Below the pieces are notes generated by a model that saw nothing but the letters and a program-made list of their open reading frames with translations, did not search any database and was not told where the DNA came from. From Mugil cephalus (taxonomy: Eukaryota > Chordata > Actinopteri > Mugiliformes > Mugilidae): 64,000 nucleotides of DNA. Location of the stretch: assembly GCF_022458985.1 (NCBI RefSeq), contig NC_061790.1, positions 3,273,001 through 3,337,000 on the forward strand, written 5' to 3'. The position numbers and the translations under genes are program-made. Every line of letters starts with the position of its first letter. Position 1 is the first letter of the stretch. Positions 9,122-56,499 of the stretch are shown here, piece after piece.

Positions 9122-12100
9122 ATGATGGATGAATTCAAATGGATTAAACTGTTGTCACTGATGATACTGATGCTTCAGTTTACTGGTAAGGATTCATTTA
9201 ACAGGAATCTCTAAAAGGTCTCTAACAATTCAGTTAATTGTCTCATATATTTGAGATTCAATATGTGGCTAAAAATAAATATGGACTCATTGTGTGATAC
9301 AGATCCATTCAAGTGCAGGTGATTTGATTAATCTGGAATAAATGCTGCAGTCAGATGAAATAAAAACCTTTAAATTAAGATTTAAATATGTGAACATTCT
9401 TCATGGGGTTTCCAGGTGTAGAAGGTTCATCGTCTTCTTTATTCATGTCAGTTTGCGTTTGGTCTCAGTCTGGTGATGAAAATAATCCTTCTCTGCATAT
9501 TCAAAGTAAATTTCATTTAAATTCATGAATATATGAAGAACATATGAAGTCATATGAACCATCGTGGTGTTGATTCAGTGGTCAGAGAGGTGTTAGTTAC
9601 TATTCACAGGGGCTACGGGGCAACGCCTGAGCCTCCAGTCTACAGCAGCAAGCTGTAGGACGAGCTAAATATCAAAATGAGCGGCTCAATCGGGATCGGT
9701 GTCCTATTACTTTTCTTTACGAAATATGAATTTTTCACAACTGCGATAAATTTTTCATTGGAAATGAATGGGACGGCCGGAAAAAAACACGCAAAAAAGA
9801 CAGTTTTTCAAAGGTCTACTGCTCAGGCATACTTTCACCCACAGACTTCATTTGAACTCTAAAAAGTAGACACAAGCCTTATGTATTGGTGCATTATCAT
9901 CTCGTTTTGATAGGTCTTATAGTTGTTGATCAATCACTGTTCAATGATCATGACCTTTTTCGAAAAATCTCGTTTTCGAGTGCGGAATGTTGCTACTTAG
10001 AGTGAGAGAACGTGTTTGAAATCACCTTAAATTTTCCTCTTTTCACGCTTGTCCCGGCCACAATATACACACTAGTCACATGATTTTTTTCCACAGTTGT
10101 AGACAAACTTGTTGTGTCTCTCACAATGTGCTCGGCAAAGCAGTGAGATGTACAGAATTTAAACTGTGAGCCTCTGTTCACGGTAAAGTACCTGTCTGCT
10201 CTCCATTCACTCCAATGTAAAGATTTTCTGAGAAAAGGAGAAGCACCTTTGTGTTTAACTCGCGAGTGTGTCCAAAATATTTGCTCCAGGAGGACCAAAA
10301 ACATATCAAAGTCTTCAGAAAGGGCTTACGACGCCCACAGTCTGCTTGTTTTTCTGATAGGAGCTACCGTTTTGTCACAGTAAGCCCAAATGTGAGACCA
10401 GTAAAAAGGTAACTTTGTGATGACAGTGACACGCACATGCGCGCACGCGCTTAAGCTCAGCAGTAGCAGGATGTACAAACATGTGGGCGAAAGCGTGCAT
10501 TACTCTCTCACACACAGGCTAACTGTGCTAAATGTAGGCTAACTATGCTAACGTAAGCTAACTGTGCTAAATGTGCATTAGGTGTGCTAACTTTAAGCTG
10601 CCTGTGCTAAATGTAGGCTAACTGTGCTAACCGTATGCTAACTGTGCTAAATATGCATTAAGTGTGCTAACTTTAAGCTAACTGTGCTAAATGTAGGCTA
10701 ACTGTGCTAACCGTATGCTAACTGTGCTAAATGATGGTTAAGTGTGCTAACTGTGTGACATGTGGGTCAAGTGTGCGACATGTGGTTTGACTGAACTAAA
10801 TGTAGCCTAACTATGCTAACGTAAGCTAACTGTGCTAAATGTGCATTAAGTGTGCTAACTTTAAGCTAACTGTGCCAAATTTAGGCTAACTGTGCTAACT
10901 CCCATGTTGACAGAGACAGTACCCCCGCCATTAGCTCCCATAGCTCCTTCAAAATTTCCCAGAGGGAATTGTCTAGTTAGAATTTAAAATGTTGATATAT
11001 AAATAAAATATACATTTTATGTTTTTATATATCATATAATTTTTCTGACTCTCCTATCTACAGTGTTCTACAGTGAGATCGGTCCAGTTTCTTGACCAGT
11101 AATAGAACAGAGGAAGATGAGCATGTGAAGATCAACACACTCAGGTCTCATAAAATAACCATGACTTCAGAGGTACCAATGAGAGCTGACAAACGTCATC
11201 ATGAAACCTGCTTGGTTTCCTCTAATAATAAAACAGTGTGAACAGAGAAGCACAGATGCATTTATCTCAACTAACCATCTTCACACATCAACCTTCCTCT
11301 GTTCTGTTCTATACTTGACCTCCCTCTAAAACACTGTGGGAAAGAGAGTCAGTTTAAAACGGTGTTTATTCTTAGTCTGTCCACAGAAAAGACAAATGTA
11401 GAGAGTTGATGTCAACAACTTCAGTGAGGGACAGAGGTGAGAAAACATGGACTGAAGTCTCTATGAGGAAGTGACCTCACTAACCTCATTTTTTTTCTTA
11501 TTGTGGTTTTCTAGTCACAGTAATATGCTCCTTCATTCAGCTACTAAAGATCATTCTTTAGTTTAGACGCAAAGCTGTATATCACAGCCTCAATTTTCAT
11601 TTTCTTCCAGAGTGTTTCTATGTGTCAAATGAAGAGTAGAGGTCACAGAGTCAAACCCTTCATCACTGCCTTGTACACAAGGAACACTAGAAAGAGACTA
11701 GCAGTCAATATGAGGAAGTGACATCACAGAGTGTCAACGCTGTGTCTCTCTACAAGGAGAACTATTTTAGACAGTGAGACAGTTTTAAGAAGGAGGAAGA
11801 CGGAGAAAGACGGACAAGAATGATGGATGAATTCAGATGGATTAAACTGTTGTCACTGATGATACTGATGCTTCAGTTTACAGGTAAAAATCAACAAAAA
11901 TTAATCAATTGAGTCACATATTTGAGATTCAACATGTGGCTTAAAATAAATATAGACCTATTGTGTGATACAGATCCATTCAAGTGCAGGTGATTTGATT
12001 AATCTGGTATCAAATGCTGCAGTCAGATGAATTAAAATCCTTTAAAATAAGATTTAAAATACAAATGGATTCTCACCATTGTCTTCACATCTTAACAATT

Positions 12101-15100
12101 GTTTTACTGTGTGTTATTTACAGGATGTTGTGGTTGTTGTCAGTCATGGTTTAGTGCAGCATCAAACCAAACCACAGATAGAGTTAGAAAGATGAACTCA
12201 TTCATGTTGGTAGTTTTAGTTCCTGGTTTCCCTCCGTGACTGAAATAGTTTCCATGTCAGTGTAGACTGATGTTTTTTGGGTAAATGTTCAGGTTTAGAT
12301 AATGTTCTGCATTAATGGCACTTATGGTGTTCCATACTTTGTGTTTGTCTGGACGGGTGACACACACTTAATGATGATATCAAGGATCATATTTTACTAC
12401 ACTTCATTAAGTCAAAGTTCCTGGAATTAATCCTTATTTTTCTTGTGTTTTGCCAAAACATTAGGTACACTGGTGAAAACAATCCTGTATCTTATCTCAT
12501 GAGGTGACAGTGACAATGTCATTTCACAGTGGTGTGAAAAAGTGTTTGCACCCTTCCTGGTTTCTTATTTTTATGCATGTTTGTCACAACTAAATGTTTC
12601 AGATCATCATCAAATGTAAATATTAGTCAAAGATAATACAAGAAAACACAAAATGAAGGTTTTTATTAAGAAGATAAAACTAAATCCCAGCCTACATGGC
12701 CCTACAAGCCTACAAAACTTTCATTTAAAAACTGCATTTAGTGTTTACTTGTGTTATCTTTGTCTTATATTTTAGTTAATTTGTCTGATGATCTGTAATA
12801 TTTGAGTGTTGATGCAAAAACATGAGAAATCAGGAAGGAGACAACACTTTTTCACACCACTGTATATTCAACAGAGATCATGAAATGTGTGTTGTGAGGA
12901 GTTTAACTCTTCACTCATCTGTTCATGTGTGCTGTCAGAATCTACATAAAGTGTGTATTATAAGAAAAACCTTTAAAAGAAAAGAAGAACAGCGTTACTG
13001 CAAACATTTTTCTCTGGTGATGCTGGTAATTCAGACTTGATATCTGCAGATGACGTCTTCACACATTCCAGTTCAATAAACTGTCTATTGTTGGTCTGAT
13101 CATGAAACACTGTAGAGAGTCCTGAAATGCACCCAATATTAACATTTAAAATCTTGACACAATATTGGACAATGAAAAGTCCAATATTGTGACTTGTGAC
13201 TCCTCAAGTGAAAGAATAATAAAACATGGACTAGAGTCTCTGTGAGTAAGTGACTTCACAAACTGTTCAAAGCACATGTTATATTCATGTTTAAGAAGAA
13301 ACCTCTTTAGAGTCTGTGTCAGACAGAGAAGAACAATGGTGATGTCTTTTCAGATGTATTGCAGTAGTACTTTTGTTGTATTTCAGGACTGACATGTCAC
13401 GGTAGTCTGGGCTTCATCTTTAGTGAAGTATTTCCACACACTTGATGAACTGCTGCTAGTTTGCTGCAACCACCCACTGGACTCCTCACCTGTCTTCTAG
13501 GAGGTGTCCATGTTGTTATTGTCACATGATCAGTGTCTAGTCGACATGATGATTAAAGTGTGATAGCGCCTCACACTAAATATTTTCATTTACATTCTAT
13601 TTTTCATATTTCTGTCTCTTTGTCTCAACAGCAACAACTGGACAACGTTCATCTGTCACTGTCAGAGTTGGACATGATGTCACTTTGTCTTGTGGAAATG
13701 TGAGAGATGGACAGAAGAACTGTGACAGTACTGACTGGTTGTTCAATGGTTTAAGAGACAGAACAACAGTAGAGCTGGTTAAACATGGACAGATCAGATC
13801 TAAACCAGACAGACTGAGAGTTACAACAAACTGTTCTCTGGTTATAAAGAAGGTCACAGATGATGATGTTGGTCATTACACCTGCAGACAGATCATATCA
13901 GGACGACAACAAGGAGAAGACTTTCAGGTTTATCTGTCTGTTATTACCAGTGAGTATTTCCATCATAATGTTCCAGGTCAAACTGTCTCATTAGAACAAC
14001 ATAGTGAAACATGACAATAAGTATGATCACAGTGATGAAGTTCATTTTCCTCTTGTTGTCTTTCTCTCTCAATATCTCCATCTTCTCCAGTGACTGAACG
14101 TGAGGACAATGATAAAGTCGTCTTGTTCTGCTCTGTGTTGGATTATGATTCATGTATTTACACTGTGGAGTGGCTGTATGATGGTAAAGAGAAAATATCA
14201 GACATGCAGATATCATCACCTTCCTGCACTCACCCTGTGACATTTACATCATCTCACCTTAATCAGAGCATTTATGAGTTATTGAAGTGTAAAGTGACAA
14301 ATGGTTACACTAAGAAAGTTCAGCTGTTTACCTTCAGCCCTCAGTCCTCAGGTGAGAAACAAACCAGTTTCTATTATCTATAAAGTAAAGGTAACATGGA
14401 GTCTGTTTGACTGTTCAAATTGTTATATGTTGTTTTTGACTTATTCAGGAAAAGATGAAAAGAGAAAGAACAAAGTGAAATCAACAATTAAACCAACAGC
14501 AACAAGTAAAAAAATGACAACATCAGTGAAACTCACCTCATCAGAACAGACAATCAGAACAACATCTCCAAACACCAACGATCCAACAAATCAACAAGGT
14601 AGAGATGGAATAGTTAAAATCTGAATGTGAGACTGACCCTTGACTCTTTTTTTCTCATATTCAGTCTCAGCCTTCATCATTTTCTTTTTTCTCAACATCC
14701 AGCTCATCATCTCAGACCCAGAGACTCTTTAATCATTTAAACTTCTCTCTCCAGTTTGGTCATGGTGGTATATGATTGTTCCTGTGGGTTTATTATTACT
14801 CTCGATATTTGTCGTCATCATCAGATGGAGGAAAACTAAAGGTGAGAACATTCACAGACCAACATTCTGGTGGAACTTGAATTTTTTAGAGGTTAAACTC
14901 AACTCTTTTATATTTTCAGGAAAGAAAACACAGATGAAAGAAAACACTGTGAGTTTAAACACTGAATAATGAAATTCTTGTACAATGGCAACTGTGTAAT
15001 GATATAAATAATTGCATAAACACAGAATGTTCCTGAACTGTATTTGTACAGGAACTGAACTTAAACTCTGCAGAGACTCAGTCTGGTCCAGAAACCAGTC

Positions 15101-15522
15101 AGGACACGGTGAGATCACAAACTACACCCAGTACAGAGTTACACTCACTGATAGAGCAGATGTAGAGTCATTATGTTGTGTTCTTTATGTTGTGTTCACT
15201 GTGTAGGCTCAACCTGAGGATGGTGTTTGCTACGCCTCCATCAGCTACACCAAGAAGACCAAGAGTAAAGCTAAAGCCCAGGTAAGATCTCTAATGGATC
15301 ATAGTGGAGATGTTAACAGAACAATCATGATGTTAAGAACTCCTGTCAGGTTGTGTTGTGTTGTGTTAAGATTGAGTGGATGAAATGTGCTGCAATGTTT
15401 CCTGTTAGGACCGTGATGATGATGATGAAGGTGGCTCTGTGGTCTACAGCACTGTGAAAGCTTCCTCCTCTTCTGCTGATCCCAGAGACCTCTATTCTAC
15501 CATCAACAAACTAAACAAATAA
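9122..15522 (+). CDS. two-Ig-domain receptor A, ITIM-type tail
   Basis: Predicted type I membrane receptor of 384 aa. Exons are leader 9,122-9,185 (or alternative 11,820-11,883), V-like 13,632-13,949, second Ig 14,091-14,351, stalk 14,449-14,598, membrane 14,755-14,841, and tail 14,920-14,948, 15,052-15,108, 15,207-15,281 and 15,409-15,522. All have GT/AG borders and the frame stays open. Residues 1-21 are a signal peptide (MMDEFKWIK to LMLQFT). V-like domain 22-127 has C42, C52, C89, C106 and W57; second domain 128-214 has C141, C149, C173, C194 and W155. The membrane helix is about 266-287. Tail tyrosines Y331 (VCYASI) and Y360 (VVYSTV) fit the ITIM consensus and Y376 (LYSTI) is close, so it probably recruits SHP phosphatases. 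The ligand is unknown. I know the family only as an unnamed multicopy fish IgSF group. Confidence 0.75.
9605..10400. repeat. unclassified interspersed repeat (GGGGCTACGGGG type)
   Basis: It starts AGGGGCTACGGGGCAACGCC and runs through AATGAATGGGACGGCCGGAA. It is present in the same intron of all units (about 23,440-23,640, truncated; 38,930-39,730; 51,005-51,680). No transposase, reverse transcriptase or terminal repeat was recognised. Short open frames in it are not convincing genes. Confidence 0.5.
10517..10900. repeat. GCTAAC minisatellite
   Basis: Tandem units of about 19-20 bp built on GCTAACTGTGCTAAATGTAG, with variants. It lies between the two leader exons. Equivalents are 24,133-24,332, 39,839-40,223 and 51,827-52,111, with different unit numbers and orders. 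There are no unique spacers, so it is not CRISPR-like. Confidence 0.85.
11712..11726 (+). promoter_or_regulatory. ETS/CRE-like composite site, gene A leader 2
   Basis: GAGGAAGTGACATCA lies 108 bp upstream of the second leader ATG, the same spacing as at leader 1. A further copy with a GACCTCA half lies at 11,465-11,479. This supports a second promoter within the gene A locus. Confidence 0.5.
11820..11883 (+). CDS. alternative leader exon of receptor A
   Basis: It encodes 21 residues (MMDEFRWIK to LMLQFT) plus one base, differing from the first leader exon by K to R. It has its own upstream element and 5' UTR and the same GT donor phase, so either leader can splice to the V-like exon at 13,632. 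It lies 1.75 kb from that exon, against 4.4 kb for leader 1. In units B, C and D the matching exon has lost its start. Confidence 0.65.
12527..12862. mobile_element. MITE, Tc1/mariner-like
   Basis: Near-perfect terminal inverted repeats: CAGTGGTGTGAAAAAGTGTT at the left and its complement ending CACACCACTG at the right. Length is 336 bp with no coding capacity. TA follows the right end and CA precedes the left, compatible with a TA target site with one change. It sits at the same intron position in all four units, so it inserted before the duplications. Confidence 0.8.
13158..13191. repeat. perfect palindrome in leader-V intron
   Basis: A 13-bp arm CACAATATTGGAC, an 8-base loop AATGAAAA and the exact complement GTCCAATATTGTG. 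Unit B keeps it intact near 26,516-26,549, while C and D have one mismatch each. It could be a structured intron site or a remnant of a tiny inverted-repeat element. Confidence 0.7.
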
Positions 15523-17620: not shown

Positions 17621-18844
17621 TCAGTGGAGTCTGACTGAAGCAGAAGGGTCTCCAGAGTTTTCATAGATCACTGAACCTTCACCTTCACCTCCATCATTCT
17701 GCACCTGTGGAAAACAACACCACAAACAAACATCACAAACACTGGTTTGACTCTGTCAAGTTGGACCTGTACAAATGTTTGAATGTTCAGGGTTTAAACT
17801 CACAGTGTTTTCTTCCATCTGTGTCTTGTTCCCTGAAAAGACAAATGAGAGAGTCCACTTTAGCTTCAACAGCCAAATTCCAGGTTCATCAAAAGCTTTT
17901 TCTGACTAAAACTTTCGTCTGTAAATGTTCTCACCTTTAGTTTTAATCCACATATTGAACGTACCAACAGATATTAAGAGTGCTGCTAAACCCACAGACA
18001 CAATGATGGATCTCAAAAAATGGGAAGAATCGAGAAACACAAACAACATGAAAGATTTTTGTTCTGAAGAGTAAACCAAGAACTAATATTCATAGAACAT
18101 TAACTTTAATAAATGTACAATAATGATCATAGCTCCACCAATATCCAAGAGTCAGTCTAACATTTAAATATCAGACATTAAGAGATGAGAGAGATTCAGT
18201 CTCTGTGTTGAAGATTTGGTGGGTTATTGTTGGTTGGAGATGTTGTTCTGATTGTCTGTTCTGATGAGGTGAGTTTCACTGATGTTGTTGTTGTTTCAGT
18301 TGTTTCAGTCTTTGTTGTGGTTGTAGTTTTTCCTTGTTTTTATTGTTGTTACGTCTTCACCTGAACAAATACAATCACAGCATGTAACAATGTCACAGTT
18401 TAATTTGTATATATGATAGAAACTGGTTTGATTCTCACCTAAGGACTGAGGGCTGAAGGTAAACACCTGCCCTTTCTTAGTGTAAACATTTGTCACTTTA
18501 CACTTCAATAACTCATAAATCCTCTGATTAAGGTGAGAAGATGGAAATGTTACAGTGGCAGAGCAGGAAGGTGGTGATATCTCCATGTCTGATATTTCCT
18601 CTTTACCCTCATACAGCCACTCCACTGTGTGACTACATGGATAATGATCCAACACAGAGCAGTCTGTCTGGTTTATATCTGATCTTTCCAAGATTAACCA
18701 ACTTTACTGTTGTTCTGTCTCTTAAACCCTTAAACAACCAGGTAGTACTGTCACAGTTCTTCTGTCCATCTGTCACATTTCCACAAGACAAAGAGACGTC
18801 ATGTCCCACTCTGACAGTGACATATGAACGTTGTCCAGTTGTTG
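17621..18844 (-). pseudogene. receptor pseudogene E, YEN-type tail
   Basis: Minus-strand relative of the D-type gene, tail-to-tail with A. From its 5' side: a fused Ig exon (18,844-18,439), stalk (about 18,360-18,220), membrane exon (about 18,020-17,940), tail exon (17,832-17,804) and last exon (17,704-17,621). No leader is found upstream. A deletion joins the first half of the V-like exon directly to the second Ig domain at about 18,678, with a CTG microhomology, and shifts the frame. The stalk reads into a stop, and the membrane-exon acceptor reads CG instead of AG. The last exon is intact and encodes GSVIYENSGDPSASVRLH. This is a dead host gene. Confidence 0.8.
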
Positions 18845-22929: not shown

Positions 22930-25900
22930 ATGATGAATGAATTCAAATGGATTAAACTGTTGTCACTGATGATACTAATGCTTCAGTTTACAGGTAAGGA
23001 TTCATTAACTTGAAAACTACATGAAAAGTTGATGACATGAAGAGTCTCTAAAAGGTTTGTAACAATTCAGTTAATTGTCTCATATATTTGAGATTCAACA
23101 TGTGGCTAAAAATAAATATAGACTCATTGTGTGATACAGATCCATTCAAGTGCAAGGAATTTGATTAATCTGGAATAAATGCTGCAGTCAAATTAAATAA
23201 AATCCTTTAAATTAAGATTTGAATATGTGAACATTCTTCATGTGGTTTCCAGGTGTAGAAGGTTCATCATCTTCTTTATTCATGTCAGTTTGTGTTCGGT
23301 CTCAGTCGGGTGATGAAAACCATGTTTCTCTGCATATTCAAAGTAAATGTCATTTAAATTCATAAATATATGAAGAACATATGAAGTCATGTGAACCATC
23401 GTGGTGTTGATTCAGTGGTCAGAGAGGTGTTAGTTTCTATTCACAGTTCAACCCCTTCAGCCTCTGTTGTCTCATCTCTGGCACTAGTTAGGGGCTACGG
23501 GGCTTCACCTGAGGCCCAGCCCCTACAGCATCAAGCTTCGCCCCAAAGTCTTCAGGAAGGGTTTAAAACGCCCATGGTCTGCTTGTTTTTCTGATATGAG
23601 CTACTGTTTTGTCACAGTGAGCCCAAATGTGAGACCAGCAAAAACGCAGGAAATCTAACTCTTTTCGCTGACTCGGCTCCGCGCGATTCTGTCATCAGTG
23701 ACGACCACTGTGAGTTGCCACGGCAACCCATGACCCTCAGGCCTGGGCCATAGCTGAGACCAGTTCATTAATCAGTTTTCTCTGCTGTTAATACAGCTGA
23801 TCCCTGTGTCCCACACATTTATGTTACAAGAATACACACCAACACACACACACTACACAGATAACTTTGTGATTACAGTTACACACACACATGCGCACGC
23901 AAGCGTGCCCTCCTCACCCACACACATGCACAGACACACTACATAGGTAACTTTGTGATATTAGAGCTACACACACACACACATGCGCACATTCCTCACC
24001 CTCATCCACACACACACACACGCGCACATTCCTCACCCTCATCCACACACACACACGGGCGGACGCGCTTAAGCTCAGCAGTAGCAGGATGTACAAACTT
24101 GGCCGAAAGCGCGCATCACTCTCTCACACACAGGCTAACTGTGCTAACTCTAACCGTATGCTAACTGTGCTAAATGTTGGTTCAGTGTGCTAACTGTGTG
24201 ACATGTGGGTCAAGTGTGCGACATGTGGTTTGACTGAACTAAATGTAGGCTAATTATGCTAACGTAAGCTAACTGTGCTAAATGTGCGTTAAGTGTGCTA
24301 ACTGTGCTAAATTTAGGCTAACTGTGCTAACTCCCATGTTGACAGAGACAGTACCCCCGGCATTAGCTCCCATAGCCCCTTCAAAATTTCCCAGAGGGAA
24401 TTTTCTAGTTAGAATTTAAAATGTTAATATATAAATAACATATACATTTTAAATTTTTATATATTATATATTTTCTCTGACTCTCCTACCTTCAGAGGTC
24501 TACAATGAGATCAGTCCAGTTTCTTGACCAGTAATAGAACAGAGGAAGATGAGAATGTGAAGATCAACACACTCAGGTTATAAAAAAATAACCATGACTT
24601 CAGAGGTACCAATGAGAGCTGACAAACGTCACCATGAAACCTGCTTGGTTTTCTCTAATAATAAAACCGTGTGAACAGAGAAGCACAGATGCATTTATCT
24701 CAACTAACCATCTTCACACATCAACCTTCCTCTGTTCTGTTCTATACTTGATCGCCCTCCAAAACACTGGGAAAGAGAGTCAGTTTAAAATGATGTTTAT
24801 TCTTAGTCTGTCCACAGAAAAGACAAATGTAGAGAGTTGATGTCAACAACTTCAGTGAGGGACAGAGGTGAGAAAACATGGACTGAAGTCTCTATGAGGA
24901 AGTGACCTCACTAACCTCATTTTTTTTCTTATTGTGGTTTTCTAGTCACAGTAATATGCTCCTTGACTCAGCTACTAAAGATCATTCTTTAGTTTAAACA
25001 CAAAGCTGTATATCACAGCCTCAAATTTCATTTTGTTCCAGAGTGTTTCTATGTGTCAAATGAAGAGTAGAGGTCACAGAGTCAAACCCTTCATCACTGC
25101 CTTGTACACAGGGAACACTAGAAAGAGACTAGCAGTCAATATGAGGAAGTGACATCACAGAGTGTCAACGCTGTGTCTCTCTACAAGGACAACTATTTTA
25201 GAAAGTGTCAACTGTTGTCATTGATGATACCGATGCTTCAGTTTACAGGTAAAAATCAACAAAAATTAATCAATAGAGTCACATATTTGAGATTCAACAT
25301 GTGGCTTAAAATAAATATAGACCTATTGTGTGATACAGATCCATTCAAGTGCAGGTGATTTGATTAATCTGGAATCAAATGCTGCAGTCAGATGAATTAA
25401 AATCCTTTAAATTAAGATTTAAAATTTAAATTGATTCTCACCATTGTCTTCACATCTTAACAATTGTTTTATTGTGTGTTATCAACAGGATGTTGTGGTT
25501 GTTGTCAGTCATGGTTTAGTGCAGCATCAAACCAAACCACAGATAGAGTTAGAAAGATGAACTCATTCATGTTGGTAGTTTTAGTTCCTGGTTTCCCGCT
25601 GTGACTGAAATAGTTTCCATGTCAGTGTAGACTAATGTTTTTTGGGTAAATGTTCAGGTTTAGATAATGTTCTGCATTAATGGCACTTATGGTGTTCCAT
25701 ACTTTGTGTTTGTCTGGACGGGTGACACACACTTCATGAGGGTTTCAAGATTCATATTTTACTACACTTCATTAAGTCAAAGTTCCTGGAATTAATCCTT
25801 ATTTTGCTTGTGTGTCAAAACATTAGGTACACCGGTGAAAACAGTCCTGCATCTTATCTCATGAGGTGACAGTGACAATGTTATTTCACAGTGGTGTGAA

Positions 25901-36795: not shown

Positions 36796-36899
36796 ATGTT
36801 GAACACCACGCCCCACTACAGGTCAGCAGCTTCTGTGTGGAGAGAGCTGTTGTCAAAAAACAAACAAACAAACAAACAAACAAAAAACACAAAACAGAA

Positions 36900-38445: not shown

Positions 38446-41400
38446 ATGATGAATGAATTCAAATGGATTAAACTGTTGTCACTGATGATACTGATGCTTC
38501 AGTTTACAGGTAAGTATTCATTTAATAGGAGTATCTAAAATGATCTAACAATTCAGTTAATTGTCTCATATATTTAAGATTCAACATGTGGTTTAAAATA
38601 AATATAGACTCATTGTGTGATACAGATCCATTCAAGTGCAGGTGATTTGATTAATCTGGAATAAATGCTGCAGTCAGATGAAATAAAATCCTTTAAATTA
38701 AGATTTAAATATGTGAACATTCTTCATGTGGTTTCCAGGTGTAGAAGGTTCATCGTCTTCTTTATTCATGTCAGTTTGTGTTTGGTCTCAGTCTGGTGAT
38801 GAAAACCATCTTTCTCTGCATATTCAAAGTAAATGTCATTTAAATTCATAAATATATGAAGAACATATGAAGTCATGTGAACCATCGTGGTGTTGATTCA
38901 GTGGTCAGAGAGGCGTTAGTTACTATTCACAGGGGCTACGGGGCAACGCCCGAGCCTCCAGTCTACAGCAGCAAGCTGTAGGACGAGCTAAATATCAAAA
39001 TGAGCGGCTCAATCGGGATCGGTGTCCTATTACTTTTCTTTACGAAATATGAATTTTTCACAACTGCGATAAATTTTTCATTGGAAATAAATGGGACGGC
39101 CGGAAAAAAACACGCAAAAAAGACAGTTTTTCAAAGGTCTACTGTTCAGGCATACTTTCACCCACAGACTTCATTTGAACCCTAAAAAGTAGACACAAGC
39201 CTTATGTATTGGTGCATTATCATCTCGTTTTGATAGGTCTTATAGTTGTTGATCAATCACTGTTCAATGACCATGACCTTTTTCGAAAAATCTCGTTTTC
39301 GAGTGCGGAATGTTGCTACTTAGAGTGAGAGAACGTGTGTGAAATCGCCTTAAATTTTCCTCTTTTCACGCTCGTCCCGGCCACAATATACACATTAGTC
39401 ACATGATTTTTTTCCACAGTTGTAGACAAACTTGTTGTGTCTCTCACAATGTGCTCGGCAAAGCAGTGAGATGTACAGAATTTAAACTGTGAGCATCTGT
39501 TCACGGTAAAGTACCTGTCTGCTTTCCATTCACTCCAATGTAAAGATTTTCTGAGAAAAGGAGAAGGACCTTTGTGTTTAACTCGCGAGTGTGTCCAAAA
39601 TATTTGCTCCAGGAGGACCAGAAACGTATCAAAGTCTTCAGAAAGGGCTTACGACGCCCACAGTCTGCTTGTTTTTCTGATAGGAGCTACCGTTTTGTCA
39701 CAGTAAGCCCAAATGTGAGACCAGTAAAAAGGTAACTTTGTGATTACAGTGACACACACATGCGCGCACGCGCTTAAGCTCAGCAGTAGCAGGATGTACA
39801 AACATGTGGGCGAAAGCGTGCATTGCTCTCTCACACACAGGCTAACTGTGCTAAATGTAGGCTAACTATGCTAACGTAAGCTAACTGTGCTAAATGGGCA
39901 TTAGGTGTGCTAACTTTAAGCTGCCTGTGCTAAATCTAGGCTAACTGTGCTAACCGTATGCTAACTGTGCTAAATATGCATTAAGTGTGCTAACTTTAAG
40001 CTAACTGTGCTAAATGTAGGCTAACTGTGCTAACCGTATGCTAACTGTGCTAAATGATGGTTAAGTGTGCTAACTGTGTGACATGTGGGTCAAGTGTGCG
40101 ACATGTGGTTTGACTGAACTAAATGTAGCCTAACTATGCTAACGTAAGCTAACTGTGCTAAATGTGCATTAAGTGTGCTAACTTTAAGCTAACTGTGCTA
40201 AATGTAGGCTAACTGTGCTAACTCCCATGTTGACAGAGACAGTACCCCCGCCATTAGCTCCCATAGCTCCTTCAAAATTTCCCAGAGGGAATTGTCTAGT
40301 TAGAATTTAAAATGTTGATATATAAATAAAATATACATTTTAAGTTTTTATATATCATATAATTTTTCTGACTCTCCTATCTACAGAGTTCTACAGTGAG
40401 ACCAGTCCAGTTTCTTGACCAGTAATAGAACAGAGGAAGATGAGCATGTGAAGATCAACACACTCAGGTTATAAAAATAACCATGACTTCAGAGGTCCAA
40501 TGAGAGCTGACAAACGTCACCATGAAACCTGCTTGGTTTTCTCTAATAATAAAACCGTGTGAACAGAGAAGCACAGATGCATTTATCTCAACTAACCATC
40601 TTCACACATCAACCTTCCTCTGTTCTGTTCTATTCTTGACCTCCCTCTAAAACACTGTGGGAAAGAGAGTCAGTTTAAAACGGTGTTTATTCTTAGTCTG
40701 TCCACAGAAAAGACAAATGTAGAGAGTTGATGTCAGCAACTTCAGTGAGGGACAGAAGTGAGAAAACATGGACTGAAGTCTCTATGAGGAAGTGATACCT
40801 CACTAACCTCATTTTTTTCTTATTGTGGTTTTCTAGTCACAGCAATATGCTCCTTCACTCAGCTACTAAAGATCATTCTTTAGTTTAGACACAAAGCTGT
40901 ATATCACAGCCTCAATTTTCATTTAGTTCCAGAGTGTTTCTATGTGTCAAATGAAGAGTAGAGGTCACAGAGTCAAACCCTTCATCACTGCCTTGTACAC
41001 AGGGAACACTAGAAAGAGACTAGCAGTCAATATGAGGAAGTGACATCACAGAGTCTCAACGCTGTGTCTCTATACAAGGACAACTATTTTAGACAGTGTC
41101 AACTGTTGTCACTGATGATACCAATGCTTCAGTTTACAGGTAAAAATCTATAAAAATTCAATCAATTGAGTCACATATTTGAGATTCAACATGTGGCTTG
41201 AAATAAATATAGACCTATTGTGTGATACAGATCCATTCAAGTGCAGGTGATTTGATTAATCTGGAATCAAATGCTGCAGTCAGATGAATTAAAATCCTTT
41301 AAATTAAGATTTAAAATGTAAATTGATTCTCACCATTGTCTTCACATCTTAACAACTGTTTTACTGTGTGTTATTAACAGGATGTTGTGGTTGTTGTCAG

Positions 41401-44400
41401 TCATGGTTTAGTGCAGCATCAAACAAAACCACAGATAGAGTTAGAAAGATGAACTCATTCATGTTGGTAGTTTTAGTTCCTGGTTTCCCTCCGTGACTGA
41501 AATAGTTTCCATGTCAGTGTAGACTAATGTTTTTTGGGTAAATGTTCAGGTTTAGATAATGTTCTGCATTAATGGCACTTATGGTGTTCCATACTTTGTG
41601 TTTGTCTGGACGGGTGACACACACTTAATGATGATTTCAAGATTCATATTTTACTACACTTCATTAAGTCAAAGTTCCTGGAATTAATCCTTACTTTTCT
41701 TGTGTCTTGCCAAAACATTAGGTACACTGGTGAAAACAGTCCTGCATCTTATCTCATGAGGTGACTGTGACAATGTCATTTCACAGTGCTGTGAAAAAGT
41801 GTTTGCACTCTTCCTGGTTTCATGTTTTTATGTATGTTTGTCACAACTAAATGTTTCAGATCATCATCAAATATAAATATTAGTCAAAGATGATCGAAGA
41901 AAACACAAAATGAAGGTTTTTAGTATCAAGTGAAAACTAAATCCCAGCCTACATGGCCCTAAGGCGCCAACACTTTTTCACACCACTGTACATTCAACAG
42001 AGATCATGAAATGTGTGTTGTGAGGAGTTTAACTCTTCACTCGTCTGTTCATGTGTGCTGTCAGAATCTACATAAAGTGTGTAGTATAAAAAAAATGTTT
42101 TTAAAGAAAAGAAGAACAGCGTTACTGCAAACATTTTTCTCTGGTGATGCTGGTAATTCAGACTTGATATCTGCAGATGACGTCTTCACACATTCCAGCT
42201 CAATAAACTGTCTACTGTTGGTCTGATCATGAAACACTGTAGAGAGTCCTTAAATGCACCCAATATTAACATTTCAAATCTTGACACAATATTGGACAAT
42301 GAAAAGTCCAACATTGTGACTTGTGACTCTACAAGTGAAAGAAGTGATAAAACATGGACTAGAGTCTCTGTGAGTAAGTGACTTCACAAACTGTTCAAAG
42401 CACATGTTATATTCATGTTTAAGAAGAAACCTCTTTAGAGTCTGTGTCAGACACAGAAGAACAATGGTGATGTCTTTTCAGATGTATTGCAGTAATACTT
42501 TAGTTGTATTTCACGACTGACATGTCACTGTAGTCTGGATTTCGTCTTCAGTGAAGTATTTCCACACACTTGATGAACTGCTGCTAGTTTGCTGCAACCA
42601 CCCACTGGACTCACCTGTCTTCTAGGAGGCGTCCATGTTGTTATTGTCACATGATCAGTGACTAGTCGACATGATGATTAAAGTGTAATAGCACCTCACA
42701 CTAAATATTTTCATTTACATTCTATTTTTAACATTTCTGTCTCTTTGTCTCAACAGCAACAACTGGACAACGTTCATATGTCACTGTCAGAGTTGGACAT
42801 GACGTCACTTTGTCTTGTGGAAATGTGAGAGATGGACAGAAGAACTGTGACAGTACTACCTGGTTGTTCAATGGTTTAAGAGACAGAACAACAGTAGAGC
42901 TGGTTAAACATGGACAGATCAGATCTAAACCAGACAGACTGAGAGTTACAACAAACTGTTCTCTGGTTATAAAGAAGGTCACAGATGATGATGTTGGTCT
43001 TTACACCTGCAGACAGTTCATATCAGGACGACAACAAGGAGCAGACTTTCAGGTTTATCTGTCTGTTATTACCAGTGAGTATTTCCATCACAATGTTTCC
43101 AGGTCAAACTGTCTCATTAGAACAACATAGTGAAACATGACAATAATTATGATCACAGTGATGAAGTTCATTTTCCTCTTGTTGTCTTTCTCTCGCAATA
43201 TCTCCATCTTCTCCAGTGACTGAACGTGAGGACAATGATAAAGTCGTCTTGTTCTGCTCTGTGTTGGATTATGATCCATGTAGTCACACAGTGGAGTGGC
43301 TGTATGAGGGTAAAGAGGAAATATCAGACATGGAGATATCACCACCTTCCTGCTCTGACCCTGTGACATTTACATCATCTCACCTTAACCAGAGGATTTA
43401 TGAGTTATTGAAGTGTAAAGTGACAAATGTTTACACTAAGAAAGTTCAGCTGTTTACCTTCAGCCCTCAGTCCTCAGGTGAGAATCAAACCAATTTCTAT
43501 CATCTATAAAATAAAGGTAACATGGAGTCTGTTTCACTGTTCAGAATGTTGTATGTGGGTTTTTTATTAAATCATGTGAAGATTCAACAAAGAAGAAAGT
43601 GAAATCAACAATTAAACCAACAGTAACAAGTAAAAAAAAATGACATCAGTGAAACTCACCTCATCAGAACAGACAATCAGATCAACATCTCCAAACACCA
43701 ACGATCCAACAAATCACGTTTCAAATATCTGAAGTTTAAATGTCACCAGTTTTCTCTCATGTTGTTGTAAAGGGAACATGGAGGATGTTCTCACTGTGCT
43801 GATGGTTTCATGTCATTATTCTATGTTTTAGGCAATGATCCAACAACAACAACAACAACTACTACTACTAGAAAATCAACCACAACAACAATAAAACCAA
43901 CAACTCCAATTACAGAGATGACAGCAACATCTAAACTAACCTCATCAGAACAGACAATCAACAACAATCCATCAGATCAACAAGGTAGAGACTGAATCTC
44001 TCTCATCTGTTAAAGTCTGAATGTCAGACTGACTCTTGATTTTCTCTGATTCAGTCTCAGTCTTCATCCTTTTCTTTCTTCTTAACATCCAGCTCATCAT
44101 CTCAGACCCAGAGACTGTTTAATCATTTCAACTTTTCTTTCCTCCTCTGTATCTTCCATCCACGTCCACCATTTTCAGTGTCTCATGTCATAAGTTAATG
44201 TTGATCTGAGCACTTTCTTGTCTTCTCTCTCCAGGTTGGTCATGGTGGTGGTACATTTTCATTCCTGTGGGTTTAGCAGCAGTCTTAATTGTTGTGGTGA
44301 TCATCAGATGGAAGAAAACTAAAGGTGAAACGAAAGTTTTGATGAAGCTGTGCTGGAGTTTGGCTATTGATGCTCCAGTTGACTCTGATTTGTCTTTTTT

Positions 44401-44950
44401 ATGTTTTCAGGAAACAAGACACAAGTTGAAGAAAACACTGTGAGTGGAAACACTGAACACTTTAATACACATCAATTTATTTTTACAACAATGTTGAATT
44501 ATATATATATGTTATATGTTCACCACTAGTACAGACAACAAACACTAATAAGAACAAATGATAACAAGCTCTGAATTTATGTTCTGAATAGATTTGAGCG
44601 TCATTATGTTGTGTTCTTTATGTTGTGTTCACTGTGTAGGCTCAACCTGAGGATGGTGTTTGCTACGCCTCCATCAGCTACACCAAGAAGACCAAGAGTA
44701 AAGCTAAAGCCCAGGTAAGACCTCTAATGGATCATAGTGGAGATGTTAACAGAACAATCATGACTTTAAGAACTCCTGTCAGGTTGTGTTGTGTTAAGAT
44801 TGAGTGGATGAAATGTGCTGCAATGTTTCCTGTTAGGACCGTGATGATGATGATGAAGGTGGCTCTGTGGTCTACAGCACTGTGAAAGCTTCCTCCTCTT
44901 CTGCTGATCCCAGAGACTTCTATTCTACCATCAACGAACTAAACAAATAA
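38446..44950 (+). CDS. two-Ig-domain receptor C, ITIM-type tail
   Basis: Predicted 367 aa. Exons are leader 38,446-38,509, V-like 42,757-43,074, second Ig 43,217-43,477, stalk 43,832-43,984, membrane 44,235-44,324, and tail 44,411-44,439, 44,640-44,714 and 44,837-44,950. An upstream stalk exon (about 43,575-43,720) has a stop and no usable donor, so I skip it; all Ig and stalk exons are phase 1, so skipping keeps the frame. The used stalk is a run of Thr (GNDPTTTTTTTTTRKS) likely to carry O-glycans. The membrane segment (YIFIPVGLAAVLIVVVII) differs from A and B. The ELNLNSAETQ tail exon of A and B is missing. ITIM-type tyrosines are Y314 and Y343, and Y359 is FYSTI. Confidence 0.72.
38930..39730. 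repeat. unclassified interspersed repeat, unit 3
   Basis: Copy of 9,605-10,400 in the first intron of C. Almost identical to unit 1. Confidence 0.5.
39839..40223. repeat. GCTAAC minisatellite, unit 3
   Basis: Nearly the same unit order as 10,517-10,900, supporting a close relation of units 1 and 3. Confidence 0.8.
41034..41139 (+). pseudogene. decayed second leader exon, unit C
   Basis: GAGGAAGTGACATCA at 41,034-41,048 is intact, but the leader start is deleted exactly as in B. The donor (CAG then GTAAAA) remains. Confidence 0.75.
41784..41988. mobile_element. MITE, internally deleted, unit 3 copy
   Basis: Both ends are present (CAGTGCTGTGAAAAAG and CACACCACTG, followed by TA), but about 130 bp of the interior are gone. 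Same intron position as the other units. Confidence 0.75.
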
Positions 44951-45740: not shown

Positions 45741-46620
45741 GTTAGCTAAAACCATGTACCACAGTATGGTGTGATCATGTTTCACATCTTGTTATAACCA
45801 GTTAAAACAACACGTGTGACTATTTGCTGCCATTAAAAAAAAAACTCAAAAAGGTTTCAAAAAAATATCCTGACTGAACATTGACATAAACCAGTGAGTG
45901 TTAATGAATCAACATATTTGTCTCTGATCTGATAATTCAGAACAACAGTGTTTTTTTTTAAACTCAAAATTTATTTGTGATTTTATGTACATTGGGTTAA
46001 TCATACCATACATTACAAAAATAAATGTAAAATTCATATTAACATGTTTTAAAGAAGTTCAAAAGTTAAAAAGATATAAAAAATAAAAAATGAATATATA
46101 TGTTGCTTTATAGTCAAAACATACGTGGTCAAATTGACCCTGTAAATGCTTCATTTTCTAGGAGTCATATTACCGTGAGCAGTGGCAAAGAAGAATCAGT
46201 TACAGATAACATTAAGATTTGAAGCTCAGTAAAGTCAAACATTCAAGATTAAAAATATTAAAGACAGTAAATGTTCTACATAAATACTATCAGAAATATT
46301 TCTTGTTGGTTGAAGCTGAGATCAAACAGTGTTGATGTGATTTAGCTGAAGACTCTAAATGTGTTGTCATGTTGTTGATCCACAGTATTAAAATGATCTT
46401 GTGCTTGTGTTGTTTTCTGCTCATGTTAAATGTGATGAGATGATGTTTAACAGCAGTGGACTCGTCTATGTGGTGAGTTGATGTTGAAGTTGTTGATCAG
46501 TGGAGTCTGACTGAAGCAGAAGGGTCTCCAGAGTTTTCATAGATCACTGAACCTTCACCTTCACCTCCATCATTCTGCACCTGTGGAAAACAACACCACA
46601 AACAAACATCACAAACACTG
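45741..46620 (-). other. inverted 3' flank of a D/E-type gene
   Basis: The reverse complement of this stretch matches the sequence downstream of gene D (56,420-58,080, minus an insertion there). It is the 3' flank of the minus-strand gene of which only last exon F remains. Confidence 0.65.
46497..46580 (-). pseudogene. isolated last exon F, YEN-type tail
   Basis: The minus strand encodes VQNDGGEGEGSVIYENSG and then an RLH end with a stop, with an intact acceptor (CCACAG). At about 46,620 the sequence switches to a copy of the A-type 3' flank (46,620-47,180), so all upstream exons are gone. It is a counterpart of the last exon of E. Confidence 0.8.
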
Positions 46621-47180: not shown

Positions 47181-47182
47181 AA

Positions 47183-50489: not shown

Positions 50490-53400
50490 ATGATGAATGA
50501 ATTCAAATGGATTAAATTGTTGTCACTGATGATACTGATGCTTCAGTTTACAGGTAAGGATTCATTTACTTGAAAACTTGTACATGAAAAGTGGATGATA
50601 TGAAGAGTCTCTAAAAGGTTTGTAACAATTCAGTTAATTGTCTCATATATTTGAGACTCAACATGTGGCTAAAAATAAATATAGACTGATTGTGTGATAC
50701 AGATCCGTTCAAGTGCAAGGAATTTGATTAATCTGGAATAAATGCTGCAGTCAAATTAAATAAAATCCTTTAAATTAAGATTTGAATATGTGGGCATTCT
50801 TCATGTGGTTTCCAGGTGTAGAAGGTTCATCATCTTCTTTATTCATGTCAGTTTGCGTTTGGTCTCAGTCTGGTGATGAAAACCATCTTTCTCTGCATAT
50901 TCAAAGTAAATGTCATTTAAATTCATAAATATATGAAGAACATATGAAGTCATGTGAACCATCGTGGTGTTGATTCAGTGGTCAGAGAGGTGTTAGTTTC
51001 TATTCACAGTTCAACCCCTTCAGCCTCTGTTGTCTCACCTCTGGCACTAGTTAGGGGCTACGGGGCTTCACCTGAGGCCCAGCCCCTCAAGCAGCAAGCT
51101 TCGCCCCGAGGTCCCTCGGGGGATTGTTATCCCGTGTGTTTCTTCTTATTATTAGGGGCTACGGGGCAACACCCGAGCCTCCAGTCTACAGCAGCAAGCT
51201 GTAGGATGAGCTATATATCAAAACGTGCGGCTCAGTCGGGATCAGTGTCCTATTACTTTTCTTCATGAATATGAATTTTTCGCTACTGTCATAAATTTCC
51301 CATTGGAAATGAATGGGACGGCCGAAGAAAAACACGCAAAAAAGACAGTTTTTCAAAGGTCTTTTGCTCAGGCATACTTTCACCCAGAGACTTCATTTGA
51401 ACTCTAAAACATAGACACAAGCTTTGAGTATTGGTGTATTAATCCGCGTTTTGATAGTTCTTATAGTTGTTGATCAATCACTGTTCAATGACCATGATCT
51501 TTTTCGAAAAATCTCATTTTCGAGTGCGGAATCTTGCTACTTACAGTGAGAGAACGTGTGTGAAATCGCCTTAAAATTTTCTCTTTCCACGCTCGTCCTG
51601 GCCACAACTTACACACTAGACACATGATTGTTTCCACAGTTGTAGACAAACTTGTTGTGTCTCTCACAATGTGCCCTCCTCACCCACAGACATGCACAGA
51701 CACACTACACAGGTAACTTTGTTATATTAGAGCTACATACACACACACACTTACACGCGCTTAAGCTCAGCAGTAGCAGGATGTACAAACATGTGCCGAA
51801 AGAGCGCATTACTCTCTCACACACAGGCTAACTGTGGTAACTCTAAGCTAACTGTGCTAACTGTATGCTAACTGTGCTAAATGTTGGTTAAGTGTGCTAA
51901 CTGTGCGACATGTGTGTCAAGTGTGCGACATGTGTGTCAAGTGTGCGACATGTGGTTTGACTGAACTAAATGCAGGCTAACTGTGCTAAATGTAGGCTAA
52001 CTATGCTAACGTAAGCTAACTGTGCTAAATGTGCATTAAGTGTGCTAACTACGGGTTAACTGTGCTAACTGTGGGTTAACTGTGCTAAATGAACGCTCAC
52101 CGTACTAACTCCGATGTTGACAGAGACAGTACCCCCGCCATTAGCTCCCATAGCTCCTTCAAAATTTCCCAGAGAGAATTTTCTAGTTAGAATTTAAAAT
52201 GTTGATATATAAATAACATATACATTTTAAATTTTTATATATTATATATTTTTTTCTGACTCTCCTATCTACAGAGGTCTACAATGAGACCAGTCCAGTT
52301 TCTTGACCAGTAATAGAACAGAGGAAGATGAGAATGTGAAGATCAACACACTCAGGTTATAAAAATAACCATGACTTCAGAGGTCCAATGAGAGCTGACA
52401 AACGTCACCATGAAACCTGCTTGGTTTCCTCTAATAATAAAACAGTGTGAACAGAGAAGCACAGATGCATTTATCTCAACTAATCATCTTCACACATCAA
52501 CCTTCCTCTGTTCTGTTCTATACTTGACCTCCCTCTAAAACACTGTAGGAAAGAGAGTCAGTTTAAAACGGTGTTTATTCTTAGTCTGTCCACAGAAAAG
52601 ACAACTTCAGTGAGGGACAGAGGTGAGAAAACATAGACTGAACTCTCTATGAGGAAGTGACCTCACTAACCTCATTTTTTTTCTTATTGTGGTTTTCTAG
52701 TCACAGTAATATGCTCCTTCACTCAGCTACTAAAGATCATTCTTTAGTTTAAACACAAAGCTGTATATCACAGCCTCAATTTTCATTTAGTTCCAGAGTG
52801 TTTCTATGTGTCAAATGAAGAGTAGAGGTCACAGAGTCAAACCCTTCATCACTGCCTTGTACACAAGGAACACTAGAAAGAGACTAGCAGTCAACATGAG
52901 GAAGTGACATCACAGAGTCTCAACGCTGTGTCTCTCTACAAGGACAACTATTTTAGACAGTGTCAACTGTTGTCACTGATGATACCAATGCTTCAGTTTA
53001 CAGGTAAAAATCAATAAAAATTCAATCAATTGAGTCACATATTTGAGATTCAACATGTGGCTTAAAATAAATATAGACCTATTGTGTGATACAGATCCAT
53101 TCAAGTGCAGGTGATTTGATTAATCTGGAATCAAATGCTGCAGTCAGATGAATTAAAATCCTTTAAATTAAGATTGAAAATGTAAATTGATTCTCACCAT
53201 TGTCTTCACATCTTAACAACTGTTTTACTGTGTGTTATTAACAGGATGTTGTGGTTGTTGTCAGTCATGGTTTAGTGCAGCATCAAACCAAACCACAGAT
53301 AGAGTTAGAAAGATGAACTCATTCATGTTGGTAGTTTTAGTTCCTGGTTTCCCTCTGTGACTGAAATAGTTTCCATGTCAGTGTAGACTGATGTTTTTTG

Positions 53401-56400
53401 GGTAAATGTTCAGGTTTAGATAATGTTCTGCATTGATGGCACTTATGGTGTTCCATACTTTGTGTTTGTCTGGACGGGTGACACACACTTAATGATGATT
53501 TCAAGATTCATATTTTACTACACTTCATTAAGTCAAAGTTCCTGGAATTAATCCTTATTTTTCTTGTGTCTTGCCAAAACATTAGGTACACTGGTGAAAA
53601 CAGTCCTGCATCTTATCTCATGAGGTGATTGTGACAATATCATTTCACAGTGGTGTGAAAAAGTGTTTGCACTCTTCCTGGCTTTTTGTTTTTATGTATG
53701 TTTGTCAAAACTAAATGTTTCAGATCATCATCAAATGTAAATATTAGTCAAAGATGATGCAAGAAAACACAAATTGAAGGATTTTGTTATCAGGACAAAA
53801 CTAAATCCCAGCCTACATGGCCCTACAAGCCTACAAAACTTCCATTTAAAAACTGCATTTAGTGTTTACTTGTGTTATCTTAGTCTTATATTTAATTTAT
53901 TTTGTCTGATGATCTATAATATTTAGGTGTTTATGCAAAAACATGAGGAATCAGGAAGGAGACAACACTTTTTCACACCATTGTACATTCAACATAGATC
54001 ATGAAATGTGTGTTGTGAAGAGTTTAACTCTTCACTCGTCTGTTCATGTGTGCTGTCAGAATCTACATAAAGTGTGTAGTATAAAAAAAATGTTTTTAAA
54101 GAAAAGAAGAACAGCGTTACTGCAAACATTTTTCTCTGTTGACGTTGGTAGTTCAGACTTGATATCTGCAGATGACGTCTTCACACATTCCAGTTCAATA
54201 AACTGTCTACTGTTGGTCTGATCATGAAACACTGTAGAGAGTCCTTAAATGCACCCAATATTAACATTTCAAATCTTGACACAATATTGGACAATGAAAA
54301 GTCCAATTTTGTGACTTGTAACTTCACAACTGAAAGAAGTGATAAAACATGGACTAGAGTCTCTGTGAGTAAGTGACTTCACAAACTGTTCAAAGCACAT
54401 GTTATATTCATGTTTAAGAAGAAACCTCTTTAGAGTCTGTGTCAGACACAGAAGAACAATGGTGATGTCTTTTCAGATGTATTGCAGTAGTACTTTAGTT
54501 GTATTTCACGACTGACATGTCACGGTAGTCTGGGCTTCATCTTTAGTGAAGTATTTCCACACACTTGATGAACTGCTGCTAGTTTGCTGCAACCACCCAC
54601 TGGACTCCTCACCTGTCTTCTAGGAGGCGTCCATGTTGTTATTGTCACATGATCAGTGACTAGTCGACATGATGATTAAAGCGTAATAGCGCCTCACACT
54701 AAATATTTTCATTTACATTCTATTTTTCACATTTCTGTCTCATTGTCTCAACAGCAACAACTGGACAACGTTCATCTGTCACTGTCAGAGTTGGACATGA
54801 CGTCACTTTGTCTTGTGGAAATGTAAGAGATGGACAGAAGAACTGTGACAGTACTGACTGGTACTTCAATGGTTTAAGAGACAGAACAACAGTAGAGCTG
54901 GTTGAACATGGACAGATCAGATCTAAACCAGACAGACGGAGAGTTACAACAAACTGTTCTCTGGTTATAAAGAAGGTCACAGATGATGATGTTGGTCGTT
55001 ACACCTGCAGACAGATCATATCAGGACAACAACAAGGAGCAGACTTTCAGGTTTATCTGTCTGTTACTACCAGTGAGTATTTCCATCATAATGTTCCAGG
55101 TCAAACTGTCTCATTAGAACAACATAGTGAAACATGACAATAATTATGATCACAGTGATGAACTTCATTTTCCTTTTGTTGTCTTTCTCTCTCAATACCT
55201 CCATCTTCTCCAGTGACTGAACATGAGGACAATGATAAAGTCGTCTTGTTCTGCTCTGTGTTGGATTATGATTCATGTAGATACACAGTGGAGTGGCTCT
55301 ATGAGGGTAAAGAGGAAATATCAGACATGGAGATATCACCACCTTCCTGCTCTGCCAATGTGACATTTCCATCATTTCACCTTAATCAGAGGATTTATGA
55401 GTTATTGAAGTGTAAAGTGACAAATGTTTACACTAAGAAAGTTCAGCTGTTTACCTTCAGCCCTCAGTCCTCAGGTAAGAATCAAACCAGTTTCTATCAT
55501 CTATGAAGTAAATGTTTCAGATTGTTATATGTGGGTGTTTCATTTAATCAGGTGAAGATGCGAAGAGAAAGAAGAAAACAAAATCAAAAACAATTAAACC
55601 TACAACAACAAGTACAAAAAAAATGACAACAATAGTGAATCTAACCTCATCAGAACAAACAATCAGAACAACATCTCCAACCAACAACGATCCAACAAAT
55701 CACATGTTTAAGGATCTGAAGTTTAATTGTCACCAGTTTTCTCTCATATTGTTGTAAAGGGAACATGGAGGATGTGCTCACTGTGCTGATGGTTTCAAGT
55801 CATCATTTTGTGTTTTAGGCAATGATCAAAGAACAACAACCACAACAACTACTACTACTACTCGTACTAGTAGTAGTATTCGAAAATCAACCACAACAAC
55901 AATTAAATCAACAACTCCAATTACAAAGATGACGGCAACATCTAAACTCACCTCATCAGAACAGACAATCAACAACAATCCATCAGATCAACAAGGTAGA
56001 GACTGAATCTCTCTCACATTTTAAAGTTTAAATTAAAGTCTTAAAGTTAGATTATATTAATATTAGTTCTTGACGATTGTTGTTTCCAGATTCTTCTCAT
56101 TTGTTGAGATCCATCATTGTGTCTGTGGGTTTAGCAGCACTCTTAATATCTGTTGTTACAGTCAACATGTGGATTAAAAGTAAAGGTGAGAACATTCACA
56201 GATGAAAGTTTTAGTCAGAAAAGGCTTTTGATGAACCTGGAGTTTGGCTGTTGAAGCTAAAATGGACTCTCTCATTTGTCTTTTCAGGGAACAAGACACA
56301 GATGGAAGAAAACACTGTGAGTTTAAACTCTGAACATTCAGACATTTGTACAGGTCCAACTTGACAGAGTCAAACCAGTGTTTGTGATGTTTGTTTGTGG

Positions 56401-56499
56401 TGTTGTTTTCCACAGGTGCATAATGATGGAGGTGAAGGTGAAGGTTCAGTGATCTATGAAAACTCTGGAGACACTTCTGCTTCAGTCAGACTCCACTGA
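50490..56499 (+). CDS. two-Ig-domain receptor D, short YEN-type tail
   Basis: Predicted 342 aa. Exons are leader 50,490-50,553, V-like 54,755-55,072, second Ig 55,214-55,474, stalk 55,819-55,995, membrane 56,090-56,185, and tail 56,288-56,316 and 56,416-56,499. An earlier stalk exon (from 55,552) has a good acceptor but no donor and is probably skipped. V-like domain 22-127 and second domain 128-214 match A closely. The stalk is Thr-rich, and the helix (SIIVSVGLAALLISVVTVNM) lacks a charged residue for adaptor pairing. The tail has no ITIM. It ends GEGSVIYENSGDTSASVRLH with a single tyrosine, Y329, in a YEN context that fits Grb2-type pYxN binding. Its tail exons match pseudogene E and exon F, not A-C. 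Confidence 0.75.
51005..51680. repeat. unclassified interspersed repeat, unit 4
   Basis: Two adjoining GGGGCTACGGGG modules. A strong hairpin (CCCCGAGG, TC, CCTCGGGG) lies at 51,104-51,121 between them. Units 1 and 3 retain only the second module. Confidence 0.5.
51827..52111. repeat. GCTAAC minisatellite, unit 4
   Basis: Same family as the other units but with a GTGTGCGACATGTGTGTCAA duplication and GGGTTAACTGTGCTAACT units not seen elsewhere. Confidence 0.8.
52898..53003 (+). pseudogene. decayed second leader exon, unit D
   Basis: Composite element at 52,898-52,912 is intact; the leader start is deleted as in B and C. A donor remains at 53,003. Confidence 0.75.
53648..53983. mobile_element. 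MITE, Tc1/mariner-like, unit 4 copy
   Basis: Full-length copy at the same intron position as in units 1-3, with CAGTGGTGTGAAAAAG and CACACCATTG ends followed by TA. Confidence 0.8.

Follow-up and report, generated by a model that had tools for sequence, protein, structure and literature searches.

Several families of immunoglobulin (Ig) receptors have been named in fish: NITR, DICP, PIGRL, NILT and LITR stand side by side in PMC7867084, and PMC10267477 likewise gives a list of named families. According to PMC2442602, the V and/or second domain of NITRs ends in a J (FGXGTXLXV) or J-like motif, and their second (I) domain has six conserved cysteines; NITRs are linked to map4k2l/men1/rtn3 or to spon2/fgfrl1, and medaka has one lone NITR elsewhere. 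The V domains of NILT carry CX3C, CX6C or CX7C (PMC3022915), and SITR, whose second domain is CD300-like, lack a membrane segment (PMC3031540).

Here, a window of 64,000 bases from Mugil cephalus (C21:3273001-3337000, contig NC_061790.1) was analyzed, and relatives were searched for across 634.8 Mb of the genome in 24 contigs. A first-pass annotation had claimed a tandem array of four complete-looking receptors with two Ig domains plus two remnants between 9122 and 56499. Both ends proved exact: the ATG of the first distal leader is at 9122, and the stop codon of G4 ends at 56499. Gene models for G1 to G4 were obtained from an alignment of the array copies plus reading of splice sites; all four genes lie on the plus strand and splice to uninterrupted ORFs with canonical GT/AG sites throughout, and both remnants were recovered, each on the minus strand (Table 1). 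The splice models also bore out the phase-1 Ig exons: junctions of the leader, V, second-domain (D2), stalk, and membrane exons fall in phase 1, and phase 0 is used by the tail exons that carry the tyrosines. Exon structure and tail motifs support the reading of the genes as immune-type two-Ig receptors with tyrosine tails. The array is just a part of the family, whose members span more than 2 Mb of C21.

Table 1. Receptor genes, remnants, and leader exons in the window (positions counted from the first base of the window)
Feature	Position	Strand	Remarks
Distal leader upstream of G1 (MMDEFKWIKLLSLMILMLQFT)	9122..9185	+	ATG intact, GTAAGG donor, phase 1
G1	11820..15522	+	384 aa; ITIMs VCYASI and VVYSTV
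G1 ectodomain exons	leader 11820-11883, V 13632-13949, D2 14091-14351, stalk 14449-14598	+	
G1 TM and cytoplasmic exons	TM 14755-14841; 14920-14948, 15052-15108, 15207-15281, 15409-15522	+	
Remnant of YEN-tail partner gene	17627..18842	-	fused, frame-broken
Pieces of this remnant	V 18842-18660, D2 18661-18443; TM 18031-17936; tail 17704-17627	-	V joined out of frame to D2
Two leader exons	21632-21576 and 22193-22137; MVEFRWIQMSLFLILMLQF	-	GTAA donors
G2	22930..28849	+	335 aa; ITIMs VCYASI and VVYSTV
G2 exons	distal leader 22930-22993, V 26991-27308, D2 27451-27711, TM 28078-28167, tail to 28849	+	
Orphan leader exon	37256..37312	-	ATG, GTAA donor
G3	38446..44950	+	367 aa; ITIMs VCYASI and VVYSTV
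G3 exons	distal leader 38446-38509, V 42757-43074, D2 43217-43477	+	
G3 exons, continued	stalk 43832-43984, TM 44235-44324, tail exons to 44950	+	
Orphan YEN-type tail exon	46503..46580	-	remnant of lost minus-strand partner
Two leader exons	49124-49068 and 49745-49689	-	ATG, GTAA donors
G4	50490..56499	+	342 aa; no ITIM; sole tail tyrosine in VIYENS
G4 ectodomain exons	distal leader 50490-50553, V 54755-55072, D2 55214-55474, stalk 55819-55995	+	
G4 TM and cytoplasmic exons	TM 56090-56185; 56288-56316, 56416-56499	+	

When exons were scanned singly, the V exons of all four genes scored above the Pfam V-set cut-off (32.0-37.6 bits versus 26), and the D2 exons scored above the C1-set cut-off in 4/4 genes (21.1-30.0 versus 21). 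Scanned as whole proteins, G1 fell below the C1-set cut-off (15.1) and G4 lay above it (22.3). The best PDB matches of a profile built from 13 D2 sequences were Ig constant domains (E 7e-6), and on profile comparison D2 resembles C1-set domains. PDB sequence searches returned general Ig-fold matches only, NCBIfam gave nothing above cut-off, and the G1 tail matched SIT weakly (22.7 bits, under the cut-off of 27.6). Among viral and prokaryote genomes, 54 and 114 matches to the V pattern were found, none of which was confirmed by tblastn.

Every plus-strand unit has a distal leader with ATG and donor intact, and only G1 keeps an intact near leader in addition. In G2 to G4 the near leaders share a deletion of about 66 bases that includes the start codon (in G2, at about 25210, the ATG part is gone). 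With this leader broken, G2 to G4 would depend on transcription from the distal leader and on a predicted splice of about 4 kb. Stalk exon choice also differs: one type is used in G1 and a second in G3 and G4, and G2 lacks a spliceable stalk exon, an ATG standing where the acceptor AG should be. The repeats of the array are segmental copies rather than chance similarities, as in positions 307-7938 and 30093-37744, which are 95.7% identical. This 7.7-kb block has smaller relatives at 19.5-21.9 and 47.2-49.3 kb; the three ORFs scanned from it had no Pfam match, and it is probably a mobile element copied along with the array. Directly downstream of the array, at window 59900-60190, lies a fatty-acid-binding-protein exon (Pfam lipocalin family), presumably of FABP7, which is a handy synteny anchor. 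An ORF at window 63226-63528 contains the signal-peptide-like MEQLLCLLFLLFVAPLSAAPTG and had no Pfam match.

Compared with the named families, the array resembles NITR in being germ-line and clustered, in combining a V with a second Ig domain, in being mostly ITIM-bearing, and in its diversified V domains (PMC2442602 for NITR). However, no FGxG (J or J-like) motif was found in G1 to G4, whose V domains end in QVYLSVIT or QVYLSVTT, and D2 has four cysteines rather than six (21/22 aligned D2 domains). Nor was the NITR linkage found for the two markers searched, men1 and the Spond_N genes: Menin matches fell on C1 (8/8) and Spond_N matches on C5, C10, and C3 (10/10), with none on C21. NITR membership, which the first-pass annotation had excluded for the missing J-like motif, was therefore rejected on motif, cysteine count, and linkage alike. 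NILT are likewise clustered fish V receptors with phase-1 Ig exons and phase-0 ITIM exons (PMC3022915). The V domain of G1, in contrast, has cysteines spaced 9, 36, and 16 apart and lacks the close pair of NILT, so that NILT membership was rejected too. A close second cysteine pair in V also marks CD300-like receptors and PIGRL, and it was absent from the V domain of G1. SITR differ in that G1 to G4 have a membrane segment and no CD300-like second domain.

SIRP, compared here by description rather than by sequence, have one V and two C1 domains, making three Ig domains. As in SIRP, related ectodomains here occur in an ITIM member and in non-ITIM members, but all four genes have one V and one C1-like domain, with an extra cysteine pair in both. 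LITR typically have FcR-like C2-type domains and not V-set domains, whereas the first domain of the array genes scores above the V-set cut-off, a contrast made with the domain type of LITR and not with a LITR sequence. That the array belongs to an already named fish family, most likely DICP or another one, is unlikely in our view. DICP, one of the named families listed above, combine two Ig domains with ITIMs, an architecture seen here as well. However, zebrafish DICP genes are MHC-linked, and MHC class I matches in this genome fell on C14 (114/115) and C18 (1/115), with none on C21. By title and abstract opening, no fish family with V and C1-like domains was found among the matches listed in the open-access literature, most subscription papers lying outside it. 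Judged from these comparisons, the family appears to match none of the named fish families compared here, being set apart from NITR and NILT by their described features and, on weaker comparison, from DICP and LITR.

To place the array within the genome, the G3 domains were used as queries; the resulting counts are lower bounds. The V domain gave at least 63 matches, of which 50 had E values of 6.2e-7 or better, 49 of them on C21; the remaining strong match, on C20, is interrupted by three stops. One exon is matched in two pieces, which brings the 49 to about 48 V exons. Three of the 49 places contain a stop, and the place at 18.8 kb of the window is truncated. The matches on C21 cluster at 1.28-1.35, 2.72-2.86, and 3.12-3.49 Mb. 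D2 gave at least 29 matches, and all 25 with E below 0.02 were on C21. The YEN tail was found in at least 10 places, again all on C21. A query from the 2.72-Mb group recovered most of the same V places and added a gene on C9. Similar "uncharacterized" proteins presumably occur in other teleosts.

Some relatives depart from the two-domain form. At C21:3225524-3227475 (L060), three V exons stand in tandem behind a YEN-type leader, like beads on a string; two of them are joined in frame with long stretches rich in Thr and Pro, and some V copies of this locus are without the full cysteine set. A diverged group at C21:2.722-2.742 Mb (L061) has six V exons, five with 38-41% and one with 36% identity to G3, and the four-cysteine pattern also occurs in the two that were read. 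The tandem-V gene at C21:2.827 Mb (L062) has a V pattern with extra cysteines that matches the array. In the off-cluster relative at C9:2073939-2074211 (L063), one exon encodes both V and the second domain, and the tail is short. Its V shares the extra-cysteine pattern of the array, and this gene could be close to the ancestral one.

The tails fall into distinct classes. Two ITIMs are present per tail in G1 to G3 and none in G4, the YENS of whose VIYENS is presumably a YxN motif of the Grb2-binding type. Among 25 D2 loci, one or more ITIM exons occur in 11 (G1-G3, L015, L018, L019, L023, L024, L027, L029, and L032), seven have the YEN tail (G4, L012, L013, L016, L017, L020, and L021), five have short tails read by eye as tyrosine-free (L025, L026, L028, L030, and L031), and one has another tyrosine tail (TMIYGTI, L022); no class was assigned to L033. 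Closely related ectodomains are thus joined to ITIM and to non-ITIM tails, as in paired receptors. The ITIM/non-ITIM state requires eight changes on each of the trees of V (22 rows), D2 (23), and V+D2 (23), close to the shuffled means of 7.7-7.9, indicating that ITIM class does not track the ectodomain, although these trees are poorly supported and their starred branches force at most two tail-class changes. Such scatter of tails over the ectodomain tree would be expected of paired receptors that exchange ends. The YEN label was somewhat clustered on the D2 tree (four changes versus a shuffled mean of 5.5; 35/500 shuffles as low).

G4 itself combines segments of different affinity. In one 150-base stretch of its V exon, identity is 0.95-0.96 to G1 and G3 versus 0.89 to the YEN type, and G2 is no nearer than the YEN type there (0.89). 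The D2 exon is nearer to the YEN type (0.94-0.96 versus 0.87-0.93), as is the sequence from about 56001 on (0.92-0.99 versus 0.63-0.85), and the stalk exons are nearer to the ITIM genes. G4 is a probable mosaic of the ITIM and YEN gene types, judging by these identities. It has no ITAM-like pattern and, by eye, the core of its membrane segment is free of K, R, D, and E; the other non-ITIM members were examined for these features by eye only. With neither a charged residue in the membrane core nor an ITAM, the G4 type shows no sign of a DAP12-like activating partner.

A second type of leader was found in five minus-strand exons of the window, all with ATG and GTAA donor. Leaders on opposite strands diverge from each other across gaps that measure 737, 1134, and 745 bp in the window; in the neighboring unit at 3.264-3.265 Mb, the gap is 1143 bp. 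Both members of this neighboring unit are recognizable, a minus-strand YEN gene (L012) with a frame-broken V exon and a plus-strand ITIM gene (L015). Within the window, the D2 remnant near 18.4 kb scored 18.9 bits, below the C1-set cut-off of 21. The basic unit was probably a head-to-head pair, with an ITIM gene on the plus strand and a YEN-tail gene on the minus strand.

An extra cysteine pair is common to both V and D2. Four cysteines are present in 21/22 aligned V domains (L025 is without the first) and stand in register in 21/22 aligned D2 domains (L032 has two); L022 and L031 each have one further, nonconserved cysteine in D2. These alignments omit the V of L012, L021, and L033 and the D2 of L013, L021, and L033, which have stops, frame breaks, or no match. 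The D2 of L032 is without both extra cysteines together, which fits a predicted disulfide in this one case. Disulfides are predicted between C30 and C67 in V and between C21 and C45 in D2. Structures predicted from four window sequences that are 83-95% alike had a mean pLDDT of 40 (V) and 61 (D2), too poor for a check of the extra disulfide.

To quantify selection on the ectodomain, codon models were fitted in IQ-TREE (GY+F3X4), with the null of omega 1 taken over a coarse grid of eight kappa values in four tests; L012, L021, L022, L027, L032, and L033 were left out. Omega was 1.82 in V clade 1 (11 sequences; 2 delta lnL 8.51, p 0.0035) and 2.53 in V clade 2 (8 sequences; 2 delta lnL 10.93, p 0.0009), values open to distortion by gene conversion. 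For D2 it was 1.31 (10 sequences, p 0.25) and 1.07 (8 sequences, p 0.76), neither being significant. Among G1 to G4, V dN was higher than first-intron divergence (0.032-0.044) in 4/6 pairs and lower in 2/6. In the 11 clade-1 V sequences, 28 of 105 columns have three or more residues, and 22 of these 28 lie in BC, C-C'', or the domain end (56/105 columns; permutation p 0.0011, with strand and hot-region borders set by eye after the alignment had been seen). The 22 columns of C-C'' hold 13 of them.

These data bear on two further explanations. We consider it improbable that the array is decaying and largely silent, consisting of segmental copies of recent origin that retain little function. Such decay would agree with the near-leader deletion common to G2-G4, the stalk acceptors lost in G2 and G3, the broken minus-strand partners, the D2 stop in L013, and the V frame break in L012. 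Nevertheless, full ORFs and splice sites are kept in all four plus-strand genes, and dN/dS of the V domains is significantly above 1 and not about 1. The 27-residue YEN tail, moreover, matches at 93-100% in 9/10 places, although several of these places belong to broken copies and may simply be of recent origin. Still less probable is that the genes encode CEACAM- or JAM-like adhesion receptors rather than immune-recognition receptors. Although CEA, CEACAM1, and JAML are among the best PDB profile matches of the V domain (with VEGFR1, otk, and titin), the CEA/CEACAM matches span just some 27-31 positions of the profile, near strands E-F. CEACAM N-domains typically lack the canonical B-F cysteines, which are present in the array V domains; the dense expansion on a single chromosome together with V-domain diversification also speaks against adhesion receptors.

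Taken together, the array likely belongs to a single-chromosome family of paired inhibitory and non-inhibitory type I receptors, probably of fish leukocytes, and by analogy the best reading is that this family would work like SIRP, NITR, or KIR. The membrane-distal V domain may bind a variable ligand, either microbial or a polymorphic self molecule; the C1-like D2 and, except in G2, a Thr/Ser-rich stalk would hold this V domain off the membrane. By comparison with known ITIM receptors, G1 to G3 would be inhibitory, the phosphorylated ITIM pair recruiting SHP-1 or SHP-2 and dampening activation. G4 and the other non-ITIM members, with a similar ectodomain and a one-tyrosine or tyrosine-free tail, may compete for the ligand or signal differently. 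Tandem duplication of head-to-head pairs probably produced the array, with decay of the minus-strand partners within the window, and recombination probably gave G4 its YEN tail. The genes would be expressed in leukocytes, and the divergent pairs may share promoters.

More tentatively, the family might form an as yet unnamed fish receptor complex, with about 48 V exons, four-cysteine V and C1-like domains, head-to-head ITIM/YEN pairs, and recombination that moves tails between ectodomains. Such a complex would couple one fast-evolving recognition surface to opposite or competing signals. Independent of NITR, it would be the equivalent in fish of the leukocyte receptor complex of mammals. If the family is separate, chromosome-scale paired receptors with a diversifying V domain would be missing from the picture of fish innate recognition drawn from NITR, DICP, PIGRL, NILT, and LITR, and the divergent ITIM/YEN pairs together with the mosaic G4 would offer a simple natural system for swaps of signaling tails.
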